From Pelagomonas calceolata (Eukaryota; Sar; Pelagophyceae; Pelagomonadales; Pelagomonadaceae): a stretch of 64,000 nt of DNA. The DNA lies in contig CAKKNE010000004.1 of NCBI GenBank assembly GCA_918797485.1, positions 3,534,001 to 3,598,000 of the forward strand. The letters run 5' to 3'. The notes beneath the pieces were generated by a model. It saw only the letters and a list, made by a program, of their open reading frames with translations. It did no database searches and had not been told where the DNA came from. The first letter of the stretch is position 1; each line of letters begins with the position of its first letter. The position numbers and the translations under genes were made by a program. Positions 4,566 through 62,669 of the stretch are shown one piece after another.

Positions 4566-7500
4566 TTACGTGAGGCCTAGCGCGAGCGCCGCCACGACGC
4601 ACGCCAGGGCCAGCGACGGCCGCAGCAGCCCCGCGCCCTCGCGCTGGGTGTTGTACTCGCAGTACTCGCCCATGTGCAGGTCGCTGTGGCACCAGCAGCC
4701 CGTGAGCCGCACGATGAAGTCGCGCACGAGCGGCTCCTCCTTGAACGTCACCGCGGCGGCGCGCGTGGCCCGGAAGCGGCCCACCAGCGACCGCGGGTCC
4801 GCCGTCGCGCTCACGTTCGTGGCGTTGTAGACCGTCATGTGGAAGTACTTCCGACCGGTTTTTTCGAAGAGCGCCCGCTTCGACAGCGGGTGCGCGAAGG
4901 AGTCGTCCACGCTGTGGCCCAGGGCCACGGGGTCCTCGAGGAAGGCCGTCCCGTTCTCGGCCTCGAAGAACGAGTCGGACTTGTCGCCGCGGCCGAAGAG
5001 GGGCGACGGGCAGAAGCCCCCGAGCGCGTCGTTGGCGCCGGAGTCGGGGTCGCACTCATACGGGTTCGCCGCCGAGCCCTTGTCGTCCATCCGTTTGGAG
5101 CGGAGCATCTCGGCCGAGCACGTCGGCCGCCGCCACGGCACGCCGAAGCGCGAGCCCGCCCGGTCCTTCTCGGGCCAGCCCGAGGGGCCGTCTTCGATCG
5201 TCGAGTAGGCGGCGACCTGTGTGGAAATCAAAATTTTACGGCGCGTTCGTGCTGAATCATCGCATCGTCCTCCACGCCATCGACGCGACGCCTGCTCGAT
5301 GGCGTGGCGATGCCAGTTCCTCACCGCTCGACCGAGCCAGGACGGCCACGTCATCGCCGAGAAATGACTTAGTGAAGAATTGTCGGTGCACCCGACGCAC
5401 TGGTTGATTTCCACACAGGCGGCGACGCCGCCCGTGCGCGTGGGGCACATGATGCCGTCGAGCTCGCAGAGGATGTTCGCCTCGCTGCGGAACATCGTGA
5501 GCTGGGGCCCCAGGTCCTCGCCCTCGAGGTAGCCGGGGTCGCCGCCGATGAAGTAGAGCGTCGGCACGCGCGCGACCTCGATCTTATTCCCGGCGGGCCG
5601 CCGCGTCTGGGGGTCCTCGTTCCGGGAGGCGCAGTCGGTCGGGCTCAGCAGCCCGGCCGGCGCGCCGTAGGTTCCCCTCTCGGGCCGCCCGCAGACGGGG
5701 ACGTCGTGGCGGTAGAAGAAGGGCACCATCGTGTGGCTGTACTTCCCCAAAAAGAAGTCCTCGTTCGCCTCCTGAATTTTAAAAATTTCGAGCGTCGAGC
5801 AGATGTAGCGTTCCGAACCCTCGGCCATGCCCACCTGCGCCCAGTCCAGGCCGTCGCGCGACCACCAGAGGTCCGCGTAGGCGTCGACCATCTTCGTGAC
5901 CGCGATGCCCTGCTTGCCGACGTAGCCGCCGCCCGTGAGCCACATGCGCGGCGCCAACCTTCCGTCGTGGCGGTACCGCGCGTCGCCGAACTCCTCGGCG
6001 TGCGGCGTGGCGTCGTGCATGCGCGCGTTGAACGCGATGTCCGAATATATATCGGACGGCTCGGACCACGCGACGAGCGAGTGCCACGCGCGCGCGGGCC
6101 ACGGCGCGAACTCCGCCTTCAACGTCCAGTTCGCGCCGTCGAGCGAGTACCAGACGTCGTTCCGCGCCTTCTGCCCGTCGAAGAGCGGGTGGCGCTCGGG
6201 CCAGCCCGCGAGCCCGCCCGTCAGGAACAGCGCCTCCTGGCTCCCGTTGAACGGGCCCTTGAGGACCTTGTGGGGCCCCTTTTCGGGTTCAAATTCCACG
6301 ACGGTCGTCAGTCCCCGCTCGAGCTGGCTGATCTTGCACGTCTTCGGAACTTCGAGGACGTCCCCGACGCGAACTTTTTTGCACTGCACCTCCGGCACGC
6401 GCTGGGTCTGGAAGGTGTAGCCCCAGCCGTTCTTGCGGCTGAACTGGACCGTGACGCCCGCGCCCGCGCGCGGCGCCCAGCGCCGCGCGTCGCTCACGGG
6501 ATTCCAGCTCTCGGGGTAGTCGAAGAGCCCCGTCGCCGGCGCGACGAGCTCCCAGCTCATCTCCCACTTCTCTCGGACCACATACTCGTCGAGCTCCCCC
6601 AACCAAAAGACGTCGCGCCGGTCGTCGAGCTTCTCGTAGCCCCGCCACTCGAAGGTCCCCGCCCAGACGTCGTTCGTCAGGGGGCTCCCGCCCATGATGA
6701 AGAGGCGCCCCCGGAACATGGCCGACGAGTGGTAGCCCCGGGCCGGCCACGGCGCCTCGCCGACGAACCACCAGCTCACGCCGTCGCGCGACGCCCAGAC
6801 GTCCCGGTCCGGCTTCGGCGTGAAGCCCCCGAGCAGAATCATGGCGTCGACCTCCGCCCGGTCCTCGGCGACGATGCACGGCACGTGCGTGCGCTGGGGC
6901 GTCCACTTCAGGTTGCCGCCGATGCCCTCGTTGTCGTTCGTGACGGCGGCCGCGAGGACGTCGTCGTAGAGCTGGCCCCGGTACGGGCCGCTCAGGAACT
7001 CTCCAAACTGTTTCTCGATGCCCCGCGGTTCGCCCGAGCAGTCGCGGAGGGACCCGCCCTTGTTCTCCTCCGTGTAGGCGCAGGGGCGCGTCTCGGAATC
7101 GGCGCTGTCCGGGTCCACGTAGGCCCAGTCGACATCCTCCTTCCGCGGCTCGTTGCCCGTCCACGACGGGAACACTTGAAAGCAGTCCGTCTTCTCGTCG
7201 AGCTGGTAGTCCAAATACGCGTCCCGGACCGCCTGCCAGCCCAGACCCTGGGCCTGCGCCGCCCGGCACGCGTCGCTGGCCACCGAGGGGTCCTGGGCAC
7301 ACTCCAACAAATCCTGCCTACAAATACAGCACTGGTCGCCGCCGTCCTGGCGGCAGTCCTTGCCCTCGTCGACCGCGTCGCTTCCCCTCACCTCGTCCGC
7401 CATGACGACGGTCACGTTGTCCTTGCGCGTCTTGTATTGGTCCCGGTCCAATCTAACTGTAGCCACGACGACGTCCAGCGAGTGGCCGAAGCGCTCCCAG

Positions 7501-8012
7501 AAGGGCGCGATGTCGCCCGGCTGCTGGACGTCCTCCATGAGGAACGCGCTCGACGTGCGCCTGACGAAATCCCCCCGCAACTGCCTCAGCTGCTGCCAGT
7601 CGTTCTTCTCGATCGTGTAGATCCAGACGTCGGCGAGGCGCGACGTCCGCTGGAAGTTCCACTTCTCGTACTGGTCCGTGCGCCCGCCGACGACGTAAAT
7701 CGCCAACTCGGCCGGGCTGTCGGCGTCGGCGCGGTAGGGGAAGACGACGGACGCGTGGCCGTGGCGCGGCGTGAAGGTCGTGGTCGCCGGCGTGACCTCG
7801 GCGAAGCGCGTGCAGCGCCCGCCCTTGGCCTCGTTGCACGTCTCGCACTCGCGGATGCCCGCCTGGGCCGCCTTGAAGCAATTCTCCCTCTCCTTCCGGG
7901 TCTGGGCCTTCTTCGGCCAGCACTCGTCGCCGTAGAGCTCCTCCATGATGTACGTGGGCAGCGCCGCTTCCGTAAAGCGGAGGAGGAGGAGGGCGTACGC
8001 GAGGCGTGCCAT
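4566..8012 (-). CDS. Secreted or membrane-anchored kelch-repeat protein, two exons split by an introner
   Basis: CDS = complement(join(4566..5216, 5427..8012)), 1078 residues. The frame is open further upstream but without another ATG; MARLAYALLLLRF from 8012 is a good signal peptide, so I start there. Kelch blades are visible as repeated GG plus DVW pairs: YVVGGRT..DVWIYTIEKNDW near residue 80-110, ILLGGFT..DVWASRDGVSWW and FIMGGSPLTNDVWAG mid-protein, then WLTGGGY..DLWWSRDGLDW. A Cys-rich insert (CRQDGGDQCCICRQD) and a C-terminal CWCHSDLHMGEYCEY block lie outside the blades. The last 20 residues are hydrophobic, so a GPI or transmembrane anchor is likely. The intron is 210 nt, a multiple of three with no in-frame stop, so an unspliced message would stay open. 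Function unknown; probably a cell-surface beta-propeller. Confidence 0.8.
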   Translation of the reverse strand: MARLAYALLLLRFTEAALPTYIMEELYGDECWPKKAQTRKERENCFKAAQAGIRECETCNEAKGGRCTRFAEVTPATTTFTPRHGHASVVFPYRADADSPAELAIYVVGGRTDQYEKWNFQRTSRLADVWIYTIEKNDWQQLRQLRGDFVRRTSSAFLMEDVQQPGDIAPFWERFGHSLDVVVATVRLDRDQYKTRKDNVTVVMADEVRGSDAVDEGKDCRQDGGDQCCICRQDLLECAQDPSVASDACRAAQAQGLGWQAVRDAYLDYQLDEKTDCFQVFPSWTGNEPRKEDVDWAYVDPDSADSETRPCAYTEENKGGSLRDCSGEPRGIEKQFGEFLSGPYRGQLYDDVLAAAVTNDNEGIGGNLKWTPQRTHVPCIVAEDRAEVDAMILLGGFTPKPDRDVWASRDGVSWWFVGEAPWPARGYHSSAMFRGRLFIMGGSPLTNDVWAGTFEWRGYEKLDDRRDVFWLGELDEYVVREKWEMSWELVAPATGLFDYPESWNPVSDARRWAPRAGAGVTVQFSRKNGWGYTFQTQRVPEVQCKKVRVGDVLEVPKTCKISQLERGLTTVVEFEPEKGPHKVLKGPFNGSQEALFLTGGLAGWPERHPLFDGQKARNDVWYSLDGANWTLKAEFAPWPARAWHSLVAWSEPSDIYSDIAFNARMHDATPHAEEFGDARYRHDGRLAPRMWLTGGGYVGKQGIAVTKMVDAYADLWWSRDGLDWAQVGMAEGSERYICSTLEIFKIQEANEDFFLGKYSHTMVPFFYRHDVPVCGRPERGTYGAPAGLLSPTDCASRNEDPQTRRPAGNKIEVARVPTLYFIGGDPGYLEGEDLGPQLTMFRSEANILCELDGIMCPTRTGGVAACVEINQCVGCTDNSSLSHFSAMTWPSWLGRAVRNWHRHAIEQASRRWRGGRCDDSARTRRKILISTQVAAYSTIEDGPSGWPEKDRAGSRFGVPWRRPTCSAEMLRSKRMDDKGSAANPYECDPDSGANDALGGFCPSPLFGRGDKSDSFFEAENGTAFLEDPVALGHSVDDSFAHPLSKRALFEKTGRKYFHMTVYNATNVSATADPRSLVGRFRATRAAAVTFKEEPLVRDFIVRLTGCWCHSDLHMGEYCEYNTQREGAGLLRPSLALACVVAALALGLT
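5217..5418 (-). mobile_element. Introner element 1 (202 bp, long subfamily)
   Basis: It has perfect 15-bp terminal inverted repeats, CTGTGTGGAAATCAA and its complement. An exact 8-bp target duplication, gcggcgac, flanks it at 5209-5216 and 5419-5426. Internally there is a 12-bp inverted repeat (CCACGCCATCGA / TCGATGGCGTGG). In the kelch gene the intron is 5426 to 5217: GT comes from the duplicated target (GTCGCCGC) and AG from the terminal repeat. Removing it restores the pre-insertion reading ..GG VAA YS.. exactly. Confidence 0.95.
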
Positions 8013-8355: not shown

Positions 8356-10583
8356 CTACGCGGCGGCAGCGGCGCCGTCGCCTTCCGTGCTCGAGAGGAT
8401 GTGCTCCGTGATGTCGAACCGCTCGACGGACTTCCCGTCCAGGGCAACGCCGTCGTCGCGCCGCACGGTCGCCTCGAGGCGCAGGATGACCTTCGTCTTG
8501 TCCAGCGCGCAGATCGCCGTGCCCGCCGCGGCGCCACGGACACCCACGAACCCGAAGGGCATGCGGTACCCGATCGGCTCGATGTGGTCCTCGCCGCCCA
8601 GCAGGCGCAGCGTGTCGTAGACGAGCTTCGGCAGCGGCCTCGTCTTGGCCATGGCCGTGTCGGTGATCGACACGAGCGCGACGCGCCCGGCAGGCATCCG
8701 CGCGACGTGGGCGTGGAACGCCTCGGACTGCGCCTCGACCTTGTTGTAGAGGTCGAAGCGCTCCAGCGCGACGCACCGCAGGTCGCCGTTCTTCTCTTCC
8801 AGCTCGAGGAACCTGTGTGGAAATCAACCAGTGTGTCGGGTGCACCGACAATTCTTCACTAACTCATTTCTCGGCGATGACGCGGCCGTCCTGGTTCGGT
8901 CGAGCGGTGAGGAACCGGCATCGCCGCGCCATCGAGCAGGCGTCGCGTCGATGGCGTGGGGGTCGACGCGATGACTCAGCACGAACGCGCCGTAAAATTT
9001 TGATTTCCACACAGCGAGGAACCAGAGGCCCACGCGGTTCTTCGGGAGCTGGATCGTCACGAGGCCGGCGTCGTCGACCGTCGGCTTGACTTCTAAATTG
9101 GTCGACACGGGGTTCGTCCGCTTCGGCGCGTCCCACGTCGCCGGCCCGAGCTTCGCGGCCGGGGCCTTGGGCTTGAAGAAGGCGTCGATGCGGGCACGCT
9201 TGGCGGCCCGGCCGCGCACGAAGCTGAACCATCCCGCGCCCTTGCCGGCGGAGTAGCCGTTGCATTCGACGCCGACGGCGCCCGGCGCGGACGGCGGCGG
9301 CCGCGCCTTCCGCCGGTCGTCGCGGAGCGCGAAGTACGCGTCGAGGCCCTCTCCCGTCAGCTCCGACTTGTCGATGCCTGTGTGGAAATCAAATTTCGGG
9401 CGCCCCACGCCATCGACGCGATGTTGTCCCCGTGACCGCGTCGGCTCGATGGCGTGGAGGTTAACCTAACTCACTGGTTGATTTCCACACGGGTCGATGC
9501 GGAAGGCCTCGAAGTACGGCAGCTCCTTGCCGTCGCTACTCCCGGCCGTGAAGCCCAGGGCCCGCATCTCGCCCGCCGTCTCCTCCGGCATCTTGTTGTA
9601 GGAGCTGTGCGAGAAGGCCACGATCGAGATCCGCGTCGGCGCCGCCTTGCCGGGCGCCGCGCGGAAGGGCATCGTGTAGTGCTCGCTGTTGCCGTCGAAG
9701 AGCTTCCAGGCGCGGTGGCACTTGATGACGCTCTCGCCGCCGCCGCCGCGCAGGACCTTTTCGCCCTTGTCGTTCTCTTTCTCGACGAACGTGTCCGCGA
9801 CCCAGAGCTCGCCGCCCGCGTGGTCGCCGAGGCTGATGATGTGCGAGGGCCCGATGTTGTTGCCGTCGACATGTTTCTTGGCCTGCGTGCGCGAAGCTCC
9901 GCGTCCACGCCATCGCCGCGACGGCGCTCCATCTCCACACCATCGCCGCGCGGTGACAGGGGAAGGCGCCGTGGGACGCCGCGCGCGACGGCGTAGTTGT
10001 AGTTGATCTGCAGCGACGAGAACGGAAAGTCCGGGAGCTCCTTCGTCGTCCACGCGCAGACGAGCTTCACCAGGTTCTGGAAGTTCTGGCTCACGGCCGA
10101 GAGCTGCATGCCGACGCCCCCGAGCACGTTCACGGCGCCGAGGCACATGCCGGTCACGGCTTTGGCGTCGGGCGACACGTTCGGCCGCGCCTGCGTCGGC
10201 CACTCGCCGATGCCGGCGAGGACGCGCTCGACCGCCTCCGTCGTGATCTCATTGGATTGGAGGGCGGCGGCGGCGCGCGCGTCGGCCTTCTCGAGCTGGC
10301 GCCGCACGGACGACGACCACGTGCCCTGGGCGACCTTCTTCTGCGTCTTCGCCTCGTTCTTGGGCGCCGCCTCGGCGGGCGGCGCGCCGGCGGCTTTCTC
10401 CGACGTCGACTTGGGCGGCGCGGGCGGCTTTACGGCCGGCGTCGCCGCGACGGCGTTTTGCTGTGTCTTTTGAGCGGTCGCTGGCGCCTTCGCCGCGGGC
10501 GCGGTCAGATCCTGCGGTTTCGTGTTGTTTGCAGCCTGCAAGGCGCTTCCCGGTTTGGCCTTGGGGCTACAGAAAGCGTCCAT
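8356..10583 (-). CDS. Oxygenase-like plus ILEI-domain protein, four exons
   Basis: CDS = complement(join(8356..8812, 9023..9377, 9501..9882, 9990..10583)): 1788 nt in frame, 595 residues. ATG 10583 starts MDAFCSPKAKPG. Residues 1-110 are Ala/Pro/Lys-rich and look disordered. The middle holds KHVDGNNIGPS..LGDHAGGELWV..SEHYTMPF..TRISIVAFSH, a pattern I know from algal 2-oxoglutarate/Fe(II) oxygenase-like domains (HxD, then a distal His). The C-terminal third, from NRVGLWFLELEEKNGD to GYRMPFGFVGVRG, fits the ILEI/FAM3 fold, usually found in secreted or Golgi proteins. No signal peptide is evident. Introns 2 and 3 are introners; intron 1 (9883-9989) looks like a decayed relative. Each join restores a continuous conserved reading (FRID|KSEL, GLW|FLEL). 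The domain names are recognition by pattern, not by search. Confidence 0.8.
8813..9014 (+). mobile_element. Introner element 2 (202 bp, long subfamily, opposite orientation to element 1 relative to its gene)
   Basis: It has the same 15-bp terminal repeats and length as element 1, about 95% identical by eye with no gaps, but inserted the other way round relative to transcription. The target duplication cgaggaac lies at 8805-8812 and 9015-9022. Gene-sense intron 9022 to 8813 starts GTTCCTCG (target GT) and ends CACAG, and splicing joins GLW to FLELEEK. Confidence 0.95.
9378..9492 (-). mobile_element. Introner element 3 (115 bp, short subfamily)
   Basis: It shares the outer repeats (one mismatch, CCGTGTGG at its gene-sense 5' end) and the inner 12-bp inverted repeat, but lacks most of the long-subfamily interior. 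The target duplication gtcgatgc is exact (9370-9377, 9493-9500). In gene sense the duplicated target begins GC, so exact excision (9500 to 9378) needs a GC-AG intron; using the GTGTGG just inside would leave 10 extra bases and shift the frame. Confidence 0.92.
9883..9989 (-). other. Intron 1 of the oxygenase/ILEI gene, probable decayed introner
   Basis: A 107-nt GT-AG phase-0 intron (GTCGCG...GCACGCAG) between NYNYA and AKKHVDG. Its 3' end TTCGCGCACGCAG resembles the terminal repeat of introner 5 (TTCGCGCACAG). Its interior holds two copies of a CACGCCATCGCCGCG-like motif that recalls the introner core. No target duplication is left. Confidence 0.6.
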
Positions 10584-38376: not shown

Positions 38377-39704
38377 ATGGTGCAAACGCGCCACGCGGCG
38401 CGGCGGCGGCAACGCAACTGGTCGATGTGCCGCATCTGCGAGACGCTGTGGACCATCTCTGGAGTCTGTTGCCTCTGCTACCTGATGCTGCAGCCGCACC
38501 TGATGCTCGACGCCGCGCACCGCGGCCACCACCCGCAACCACCCAAGGCGGTGCCGCACGACCTGTCGCCGCTCGAAGCAATGCTAACAACGACTGAGGC
38601 CCTGGCGAAGGCCCGGGGCTGGCCGAGCCGCGCGGCGCGGGACGCGCTCGCGCGCGGCCTCGAAACAAGAAATGGGCGGCCGCGGCCGCGCCGCTTTGAG
38701 AAAGGCGAGGGCCCGCTGTGCGCCGTGCTCATGTGGACGGCGACGTTCGTCCTGGAGATCGCCAAGTTTCGCGTCTTCGAGCCGTTCGTGGCCGAGCTCG
38801 ACGCGCAGGTGCCCTCTATTAATATGAGCGCCCTCGTCGACTGGACGGAGCTCGGCCAGGCGCACACGCTGCTGCACGTCTTCGCGGAGCACCCGTCGCA
38901 AGTTTTGAGAGGCGGGGCCGTCTCCACAATACCCGACGGCGACGCGACGCGGACGCTCGGCGAGCGCGTCTACCGGAATGTAGGAAGGGTGCGCGCGGCG
39001 GAGCGGGCGAAGCGCAAGCTGAAGCGCCAGGAGACCAAGGCCTTCTGCGACACGCTCAATCGGTCGGCGGCGGCCGGCGTGTGTTATGGGAGAGACGACG
39101 AGCCCCGATTGGGGTGGATGAAGATATCTGGCTTCGCCCTGGCGACGGACGGCACGATGCTTGCCCTTTTTGACGACGTCTCGGGCTGTGTGGAATCAAA
39201 TTCCGGGCGTCCCACGCCATCGACGCGACGTCGTCCCCGTGACCGCGCCGATGCAACCTAATTCACTGGTTGATTTCCACACAGGTCGAGGGTAATATTG
39301 AGGAGCTGCGCGCGGCCCTGCGCCACGCGGCCGATCCGATGTTCCCGGCCGGCGCCGTGCGGCAGACGGCGCCGCTGCATTTGGTCATTGGGCGCTTCGT
39401 GGACTGGCCCGTGTTGAATGACCTCGACCGCGCGCGCGTGAACCTGTGCGTCGAGCGCTGGGCGGCGGCGCTGCGGGAGCACCGCGAGCCGCAAGATGGC
39501 ACGGAGGTGCCCTACGTCGGCGCGACGGCGCGGCTCTACGAGCTCGAGCTGGCGCGCGACGACGCCTTCGGCTTCTTCGAGCGGGCGACGCACCGGAAGG
39601 TGCCGCTCCTCGAGGGCTACCCCGAGGAATACTCCGACGACGAGTCGGTCCGGCGCGAGGCCCGCAAAAAGAAGAAGAAGGACAAGAAGGGGAAAGAGTT
39701 TTAG
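38377..39704 (+). CDS. Unrecognised type II membrane-like protein, two exons split by an introner
   Basis: CDS = join(38377..39177, 39285..39704), 406 residues. ATG 38377. A basic N-terminus with CRICETLWTISGVCCLCYLMLQ forms one probable membrane segment (about 18-44), so a type II topology is likely. The large C-terminal part (110-390) is well ordered in pattern (LCAVLMWTATFVLEIAKFRVFEPFV, APLHLVIGRFVDWPVL) but matches no family I know. It ends in a Lys run (RKKKKKDKKGKEF). Splicing out introner 4 joins MLALFDD to VEGNIEELR. Confidence 0.75.
39186..39284 (+). mobile_element. Introner element 4 (99 bp, short subfamily)
   Basis: Ends CTGTGTGGAATCAA (one A lost) and TTGATTTCCACACAG. The interior CCCACGCCATCGACGCGACG is shared with the others, but the second inner arm is gone. 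Flanks gtctcggg (39178-39185) and gtcgaggg (39285-39292) agree at 6 of 8 bases, an aged target duplication. Intron 39178-39284 is GT-AG, 107 nt. Confidence 0.9.
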
Positions 39705-46608: not shown

Positions 46609-46635
46609 TACCCCACCAGCACGCCATCGACGCGA
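46609..46635 (+). repeat. 27-bp direct repeat flanking the MYND/TPR gene, copy 2
   Basis: TACCCCACCAGCACGCC plus ATCGACGCGA; see copy 1 at 45727-45753. Confidence 0.85.
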
Positions 46636-46683
46636 CGCCGTTAGTGGCGGAACTTGAGTCTTACACAGGGGGGAATCTATCTA

Positions 46684-48994: not shown

Positions 48995-49699
48995 CTAAAG
49001 CTCCCCCTCCTTCCTATCCCGCAGCTTGTACCACCGCTCCCCGTCCGGAAAAATCAACGACCCCGAGCCGTCGAACGTGTGGATGCCGTCCCAGCCGGCC
49101 ACGCCGCCGATCGGCCCAAAATCCATAAAAAAGCTCTCCGACGACTTGGGCCAGCCCCGGAAGGCCCCCACCAACTCGAAGAATTTCACACCATCGTCCG
49201 TGCCGACGACGGTCACGGACACGCCCTTGATTCTCCCGCTCCTTCTTGAAACGACCCTCAAACCCGCGAGGCCCCCGTCCCAATCCTCCGTCGCGTAGAC
49301 GCCGTCGAAGGGCTGGTCCCCCTCTACCTTCACAGCGGCGAAGCCCGCCTCCCGCCGCCGCCACTCGCCGCCGCCCTCCCACCGTAGCACGTCGCCGTCC
49401 CAGGTCGCCTTCCTCGACTCCGTACCATCAATGTGTGACCAGTCCAGGGCCAGCTCGCTCGTCCCGTCGTAGCTCCCGTGCGTCGTCCAGACCGTGCCGT
49501 CCGGCAGGACGCCCATCGCGTGCGCGCGGCCGTCGTCGTGCACGTAGACGGCCCGCGCGCTGGCGAGGGCGTCGCAGGTTTTGGATAACTTGCCGCAGGC
49601 CGACGCGTCGCTGAAGAGGCCCGTCGGTTGTTGGGCCGTCGCGCCGATGGCGTAGAGGAGCACGCCCCAGGTGGTGGGGCTGCCCATTCTCGTATGCAT
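48995..49699 (-). CDS. Secreted protein of unknown function
   Basis: 234 residues from ATG 49699. The N-terminus (GVLLYAIGATAQQP) suggests a signal peptide cleaved near residue 23, then a Cys pair (ASACGKLSKTC). The rest is rich in Gly, Trp and Asp with beta-strand alternation (ATWDGDVLRWEGGGEWRR, GVSVTVVGTDDGVKFFELVGAF, GIHTFDGSGSLIFPDGERWYKL). No family is recognised. A degenerate palindrome lies about 135 bp upstream. Confidence 0.7.
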   Translation of the reverse strand: MHTRMGSPTTWGVLLYAIGATAQQPTGLFSDASACGKLSKTCDALASARAVYVHDDGRAHAMGVLPDGTVWTTHGSYDGTSELALDWSHIDGTESRKATWDGDVLRWEGGGEWRRREAGFAAVKVEGDQPFDGVYATEDWDGGLAGLRVVSRRSGRIKGVSVTVVGTDDGVKFFELVGAFRGWPKSSESFFMDFGPIGGVAGWDGIHTFDGSGSLIFPDGERWYKLRDRKEGEL

Positions 49700-61029: not shown

Positions 61030-62669
61030 TCAGGCCGGCGTCTGCGGAGCGCGCGACCGGCGGACGGCTGACGGGGGCGACCGGCGGTCCAGGACGTCCG
61101 CGACGCGCTCGGCGGACTCCGGCGACTGCGTCTTCCAGAGGTGCTGCAGCAGCGAGGGCGTCGACGGCGGTGGCCCAGGCGGTGGCGGCGGCGGCGGTGG
61201 CGGTGCGGACGGCGGCGGCACCCGCGCGGACCGCGGCCACGACGGCGGAGCTGCAGACGGCGGCGCCGCGGACGGCGGCGGCCCGGGCGGCGGCGGCCCA
61301 GGCGGCGGCGGAGGTAGAGGCGGTGGCGGCTGCTCGGCGACAACCGGCGCTGGGGGAGGCGGAGGCGGCGGCGACGGCCGCCGCTCGGCGACCACCGGTG
61401 CGGGCGGAGGCGGCGGCGGTGGCGGCGCGCGGCTTAGAAAGCGGGGCTCGAACGTGCACTCGGCGACCTCGGCCTCGTTGTTCGCCGCGCGCTCCTCCGC
61501 GACCTTCGCCCGCGCGCGCTCGAGCCAGGCCTGGTTCCGGTCCGCGAGGGACACGCCCTCCGTTGAAGAGCGGGGATCGTGCAGCGCCGGCGCAAACGTG
61601 TAGCCCGCGAGCTCCCGCTCGGCCTCGCGCGCGCGCCGGTCGCGCATGCGCGCGCGGCCCTCGGTCGCGTCGCGGTACAAGCGCGCCGCGGCGGCCGACG
61701 CTCTCCTCGTCGCCGCCATCTCGCGCGAGGCTCGTCGCCCGCCCGCCTCGCCCGACTCGCGCCGTTTGGCGCCGAACGTCGCCCGCACGGACCCCAGGAA
61801 GTCGCCATCCGCGACCTTGGCCCGCGTGCCGTGCGGCTTTGGCCTGCGCGCAAATCAACCAGTGAGTGGGTGCTCGCAAAGTCATATCTCGGCGACGACG
61901 CGGCTCAAGTCGCGTGGTCAGAGAACCGCACCGCCACGCCGTCAAGCAGGCGTCGCGTCGATGGCGTGGGAAGCGCCGCGAAACTTGATTCGCGCACAGG
62001 CCAAAACCGCGCCAGGCGCTCCGCGGCGGACTCGTCGTGCGCGACCGCGCGGCTCCCGGGGCAGACGTGGCTCGTGCTGCGCGCGTCACGCGCGGCCCGG
62101 TCCGCCGCGGCGGTGCGGCGCCGCGCGTCCTCCTGCCGCCGCAGCGCGTCCACGTAGAGCGTCGTCGCGCGCGCCGCCGCGCGCTCCGTCCGGCCCCGCG
62201 CCGCACGCGCCGCCGCCGCGCGGTCGGCGTCCTTCCGTCGCGCGAGGTCCTCGGCCCGCGCGCGCGCCGCCGCGTGGAGCCGCGCGTGGACGGCGTTGTC
62301 GCGCCGGAGCCGCGCCGCCTTGCGCGTGATCGCCGGCGTCGCGGTTCGCGCCGCGCGCTCGCGTTCGGCCGCGGCGCGCTTCGCGACCGCGCGCGCCGCG
62401 GCGCCGTGCGCGTGGAGCCGGTCCTCGACGCGCACGGCCGCCACGACCTCCCCGCCCGCGCCCGCGCCGCCCGCCGCCCAGAGGCCCGCGTCGCGGCTCC
62501 GCGCGGTCGCCGCGAGGCTTACGCTCGCGTCGCAGAGCCGCGGCGACCGCGGCTCCGCGTCAAGGGCCTCCTCCGCGGCCTGGCGCTCCGCGGCGAGCCG
62601 CGCGTCCTCCTCCTGGCGGCGGCGCCGGCGGTCCGCGTCGGCGTAGAGGCGCTGGCAGGCGGTCGCCAT
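61030..62669 (-). CDS. Charged helical protein with ciliary-type TFxP motifs and a poly-proline tail, two exons split by an introner
   Basis: CDS = complement(join(61030..61843, 62008..62669)), 491 residues. ATG 62669 (MATACQRLYADADRRRRRQ). Most of exon 1 is Ala/Arg/Glu-rich helix. Exon 2 has AGYTFAPALHDP..SLADRNQAWLERARAKVAEERAANNEAEVAECTFEPRF: the repeated (C/Y)TFxP next to a WLExxRxK helix is a feature I know from flagellar and centrosomal proteins of protists. The C-terminus is a long Pro run (PPPPPPPPAP) that could bind profilin or SH3/WW domains. The intron join LAR|PKPHGTRAK keeps the frame. Confidence 0.7.
61844..61999 (-). mobile_element. Introner element 5 (156 bp, divergent subfamily)
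   Basis: Ends CTGCGCGCAAATCAA and TTGATTCGCGCACAG (two mismatches as inverted repeats). It shares the AACCAGTGAGT end and the inner CGTCGATGGCGTGG with the others. The inverted symmetry continues outwards (TTTGGC / GCCAAA), and I see no direct target duplication. Intron 62007 to 61844 starts GTTTTGGC and ends GCGCAG. Confidence 0.85.

Follow-up and report, generated by a model that had tools for sequence, protein, structure and literature searches.

The introners of Aureococcus and Micromonas, as set out by Huff, Zilberman and Roy in 2016 (Nature 538:533), reportedly split their splice sites, one being carried by the element and the other coming from the duplicated target. The general range of introners, including those of Symbiodinium microadriaticum, has been covered by Gozashti et al. 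2022 (PMC9860276). In Pelagomonas calceolata, a peak of intron length near 210 bp has been called characteristic of introner elements (Commun Biol 2022, PMC9481584); the genome of strain RCC100 described there consists of six nuclear contigs (32.4 Mb) plus plastid and mitochondrion, has a GC content of 63%, and carries duplicated ends of 393 kb, over 99% identical, on contigs 1 and 5. The mechanism that would have made the intron at the locus analyzed here (positions 5209-5426) has been described before, and the copy belongs to a set of roughly a thousand. An initial sequence-only reading had suggested that this family in this gene may be new; the mechanism has been published, and introner-like introns of Pelagomonas are already in print. 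The ends of the element, the share of GC donors and the acceptor-loss test described below were not found in the accessible portions of the literature on Pelagomonas or pelagophyte introners, supplements aside, and may be in print.

The window, i.e. the whole stretch of 64,000 nucleotides that was analyzed, corresponds to positions 3534001-3598000 of contig C4 in a genome of 32,445,274 bases and 8 contigs. The element at 5217-5418 is 202 bp long, is flanked on either side by an exact copy of the 8-bp GCGGCGAC and has perfect 15-bp inverted ends, CTGTGTGGAAATCAA (Table 1), so that both structural features claimed in the sequence-only reading are present and exact; an inverted-repeat search on this element returns 16 nt because adjoining letters of the target site duplication (TSD) happen to pair. 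At the tested spacing, the window has 1,942 direct pairs of 8-mers, of which two enclose perfect 15-bp inverted ends (5209-5426 and 8805-9022), and the structure at 5209-5426 is real, not a product of chance. The host gene is a minus-strand ORF, for which the first in-frame ATG on the 8012 side is assumed to be the start codon, and its product matches kelch repeats (Pfam). The predicted intron, the reverse complement of 5217-5426, begins with GTCGCCGC (GTCGCC), finishes with CACACAG and is free of in-frame stops; when it is taken out, the host protein is fused from ...CPTRTGG to VAAYSTIEDG...

This copy is very probably an introner: a MITE, i.e. a short DNA transposon of the non-autonomous cut-and-paste type, that would have become a spliceosomal intron as it inserted. 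The element would be placed, and 8 bp of the target duplicated, by a transposase supplied in trans; the upstream target copy would provide the 5' splice site, with GT or, in about one-third of the sampled copies, GC, and the 3' splice site would come from the outermost part of the terminal repeat, TTGATTTCCACACAG. Splicing would then take out the element together with one target copy, and the original coding sequence would remain.

Table 1. Coordinates of the introner locus, of the other copies in the window and of two hAT-like genes in the same genome (window positions unless a contig or locus is named)
Feature	Position	Strand	Remarks
Target site duplication, left copy GCGGCGAC	5209-5216		Begins the downstream exon in gene sense
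Left terminal inverted repeat CTGTGTGGAAATCAA	5217-5231	+	Minus-strand reading ends ...CACACAG, the predicted acceptor source
Element interior, 172 bp	5232-5403		Too short for a transposase
Right terminal inverted repeat	5404-5418	-	5' end of the element in gene sense
Target site duplication, right copy	5419-5426		GTCGCCGC in gene sense, predicted donor
Predicted GT-AG intron, 210 nt, phase 0	5217-5426	-	Element plus one target copy; from the site itself and family statistics
Host gene, coding part upstream of intron, kelch-repeat protein	5427-8012	-	ORF; Pfam Kelch_1 and others
Host gene, coding part downstream of intron	4569-5216	-	ORF and junction reading
Second copy with TSDs, CGAGGAAC, exact	8805-9022	- (gene strand)	Element 8813-9014, 202 bp
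Third copy with TSDs, GTCGATGC, exact	9370-9500	-	Element 9378-9492, 115 bp
Fourth copy with TSDs	39178-39292	+	Element 39186-39284, 99 bp; target copies mismatch at 2/8
hAT-like transposon	L041:3050-6700		Perfect 14-bp ends CAGGGCAGCAGAAG; TSD TTGCTCGC, exact
hAT-like gene (L100 with L101, L102)	C5:1220521-1223389		Ends CTAGGTTGCCATTA (13/14); TSD ACACTCGG; 832-aa open frame

The genome search for the element ends that the sequence-only reading had proposed turned up 1,562 exact sites of the 15-mer (790 + 772), compared with none for the reversed control; in the window, 10 matches with up to 3 mismatches are found vs 0.5 expected. Among the 68 paired copies listed on contig C1, both ends are exact in 31 and one end is exact in 36, which suggests a total of roughly 1,100 copies that have one or both ends exact (1,562 divided by 98/68); the C1 listing comprises 100 of the 1,562 places, all on this contig, and is not a random sample of the genome. 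The C1 copies with no more than 2 TSD mismatches (n = 53) are 60 to 206 bp long, 12 of them falling between 200 and 204 bp. A similarity search with the 5209-5426 copy, in which the best 40 of 891 candidates were scored, yields sequences 95-100% identical over their main matches. The second copy in the window shares 95% identity with the first and lies in the opposite orientation; the third has GC at the donor position in gene sense and a CCG variant on its gene-sense 5' repeat.

For ten exact ends, no partner with 3 or fewer mismatches is found within 700 bp (L008:1515, L020:3033, L040:575, L056:917, L074:703, L076:700, L082:695, L088:695, L088:893 and L093:699); that in L020 is near the edge of its stretch, and the two in L088 point in the same direction, 198 bp apart. 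A related element with diverged ends, CTGCGCGCAAATCAA and CTGTGCGCGAATCAA, is found at 61844-61999 of the window and probably represents a second subfamily; its end form CTGYGCGCRAATCAA occurs 64 + 55 times in the genome, and its flanks, GGCTTTGGC and GCCAAAACC, show no clear 8-bp duplication and look inverted. Short stretches similar to the inner palindrome of the introner, CCACGCCATCGACGCGACG, are located outside the four copies, at 9904-9932, 46620-46639 and 49637-49659, and may belong to other intron families.

Across 114 pairs of ends, which combine the C1 listing with 30 loci chosen because they resemble the 5209-5426 copy, such that full-length copies are over-represented, an exact TSD of 8 bp is seen in 65 and a match over 9 bp in none. 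With up to one mismatch allowed, 87 of the 114 pairs have a TSD, vs a mean of 1.6 and a maximum of 7 after shuffling. The copies thus combine inverted ends with a target site duplication, as DNA-transposon introners do, and the 8-bp length of the duplication is that of the hAT superfamily.

The use of splice sites can be gleaned from the coding sequence on both sides of the element. A codon score, trained on 17 ORFs from the window, each 400 aa or longer (one of which includes the 5209-5426 read-through, another adjoins the third copy, and some host tested copies), was applied to 240 bp on each side of the 95 of the 114 pairs with no more than 2 TSD mismatches, and 56 copies had both flanks scoring above 8. 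Strand and frame of the two flanks agree in 55 of these 56 once the element and one TSD copy are removed, compared with 11 when the element is left in, the only disagreement between flanks being in L011. Many similar copies therefore appear to interrupt the coding frames of different genes, and the claim that removal restores the coding frame extends from the first copy to those sampled. The 55 agreeing copies comprise 23 from the similarity-chosen loci, 29 listed on C1 and 3 located in the window; in gene sense, the target copy has GT at its start in 36, GC in 18 and GA in one (L035, in the called strand), and on the antisense strand it has GT in 7 and GC in 5. The excess of GY in gene sense (54/55 vs 12/55; Fisher 4e-18) persists when the similarity-picked loci are set aside (GT 22 and GC 10 of 32). 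The predicted introns are in phases 0, 1 and 2 in 27, 12 and 16 cases, respectively.

A preference of the transposase for a roughly palindromic GTCG/CGAC site, rather than use as a donor, could account for the GT that opens the target copy, and the TSD letters are indeed roughly palindromic (G-T-C-G followed by C-G-A-C). This explanation is improbable because, among the 65 exact TSDs, a GT start (29) and an AC end (25) are nearly mutually exclusive, occurring together in only 3, and because GY follows the strand of the gene as described above. GY is available on one strand in every one of the 65 exact TSDs, compared with 31% of random 8-mers from the same loci.

The acceptor lends itself to a test of its own. 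Should the outermost AG of the repeat serve as the acceptor, its loss through a T-to-C change would be expected to be tolerable only in the repeat on the 5' side of the element in gene sense. The variant repeat with this change, CCGTGTGG (CGG replacing CAG), has 60 exact sites in the genome, all of which were examined: 13 had no partner in the surrounding sequence, 24 were not confident and 23 were kept, with no more than 2 TSD mismatches, agreeing coding flanks and the gene strand taken from the coding score alone. In all 23 confident copies, 21 of which are outside the 55-copy set, the damaged repeat is at the gene-sense 5', non-acceptor end (two-sided p 2.4e-7), and the gene-sense target copy begins with GT in 18 and GC in 5. 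Among all 47 partnered variants, 45 are labelled 5' and two (L126 and L136, with weak or disagreeing flanks) are labelled 3'. Mismatches at the AG positions in the 55 copies are distributed 5 vs 0 between the 5' and 3' repeats, too few to count alone, and two of the 23 acceptor-loss copies are also among these five; as a control, the other 14 repeat positions show 12 mismatches at each end. Over its whole length, the gene-sense 5' repeat is not clearly more decayed than the 3' repeat in the 55 copies (17 vs 12 mismatches in total, with 12 copies worse at 5' and 10 at 3'), which counts against the introner reading. Taken together, the frame, donor and acceptor-loss results indicate, from sequence, that one splice site is carried by the element and the other is supplied by the target copy, as the sequence-only reading had proposed for the first copy.

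A plain MITE within the coding sequence, read through unspliced and adding 70 residues to the protein, would fit the 5209-5426 copy, which is 210 nt long, in phase 0 and stop-free; the observation that this intron lacks an in-frame stop is correct, but the attendant suggestion that retained transcripts stay translatable describes an incidental feature, given that only 4 of the 55 sampled copies are both stop-free and a multiple of three in length. In 45 copies the length is not divisible by three; the frames of the flanks agree in 44 of these with the element removed and in none with it in place, so that read-through would break 44 frames that are intact on both flanks. Because unspliced read-through also predicts neither the gene-sense GY nor the one-sided loss of AG, it is highly improbable. 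The spread of introns via reverse splicing of RNA, rather than DNA transposition, would account for near-identical introns at many places but hardly for inverted ends, an 8-bp target duplication and the use of both orientations, and is least credible.

For the introner reading, the symmetry of the element has a further implication. As the ends are inverted copies of each other and offer the same acceptor on both strands, the element would be able to function as an intron in both directions, provided that the gene-sense target begins with GY; the 38 copies among the 55 that resemble the 5209-5426 element run one way relative to the gene in 24 cases and the other way in 14, in line with such two-way use. 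We lean towards a view of the 15-bp end as a compact, strand-neutral 3' splice-site module, comprising a TTGAT branch site, a short pyrimidine run and CACACAG, that would serve as the acceptor whichever way the gene runs, with a GC-tolerant spliceosome (18/55) accepting any gene-sense GY target, so that insertion alone would produce a working intron in either orientation. The CTRAY branch-site motif is present within 35 nt before the repeat in only 5 of the 55 copies, which counts against the introner reading and leaves the assignment of TTGAT in the repeat as the branch site a guess.

Also against the introner reading, no transposase gene carrying the introner ends was found in the genome, in a search that could miss domains split by introns. 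A candidate for an autonomous partner, with ends 3.4 kb apart at C1:549074-552524, proved to be a lone end and a separate 71-bp element. Two hAT-like genes are each enclosed by their own inverted ends and an exact 8-bp TSD (Table 1), with 1 and 0 mismatches in 14 when the ends are paired vs 5 and 3 in a non-complement control; in the Pfam search, the L041 gene passes the cut-off for the hAT dimerisation domain and the C5 gene is below the cut-off for both families matched. Neither gene is flanked by introner ends, and as both bear other ends, they were rejected as a mobiliser carrying those of the introner. At the junction of the two open frames of the hAT-like transposon, 67 bp (L041:5581-5647) are 87% identical to the introner interior; for the C5 gene, a 63-residue fragment with 56% identity is located at C3:5199540. 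The domains PF21787, PF18758, PF10551 and PF12762, which we take to represent the P, KDZ/Zisupton, Mutator and Merlin superfamilies, respectively, have no match in the genome; the first two have no match in the control genomes either.

The near-identical sequences near the starts of contigs C1 and C5 (99.0-100% over 9 loci) contain no empty site, another point against the introner reading, the element being present in both copies at all 9 compared loci (13 are listed there on C1). In a search of the genome with the host protein, with the best 40 of 709 candidates scored such that other matches may have displaced a paralogue, all 39 matches listed besides the protein itself fall on residues 842-973, around the read-through element. 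Because candidate introners have been reported in mirusviruses (PMC12768974), viral contigs were searched for pairs of exact ends separated by gaps of 60-90, 91-120, 121-150 and 150-180, and none were found, although diverged copies would escape such a search.

These results amount to a sequence-level account of a large introner family in an ocean picoalga, in which the use of splice sites was tested without RNA, through natural acceptor mutants confined to the end where the acceptor is unused. With roughly a thousand copies, the effects of donor strength, orientation and intron phase can be tested on existing RNA reads, against which the share of GC donors is also worth checking.

The introners of Aureococcus anophagefferens are reportedly similar: the host is likewise a pelagophyte, the introns are of ~210 bp, the element is a non-autonomous DNA transposon, and one splice site is carried with the other co-opted from the duplicated target, a likeness that pertains to the descriptions and not to the end sequences. 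Set against them, the sampled Pelagomonas donors are GC in 18 of 55. The introner-length introns previously noted in P. calceolata, with their length peak near 210 bp, are very probably from the genome analyzed here and take up one sentence in the accessible part of that paper, which mentions neither ends nor target duplication nor the split of donor and acceptor (PMC9481584). The introners of S. microadriaticum share the combination of a TSD with inverted ends, but their TSD is 4 bp long, compared with 8 bp in Pelagomonas, and the hosts are unrelated (PMC9860276). Within the same genome, the hAT-like transposons (L041; L100 with L101 and L102) have in common with the introner the 8-bp target duplication and differ from it in their ends, CAGGGCAGCAGAAG and CTAGGTTGCCATTA as opposed to CTGTGTGGAAATCAA.
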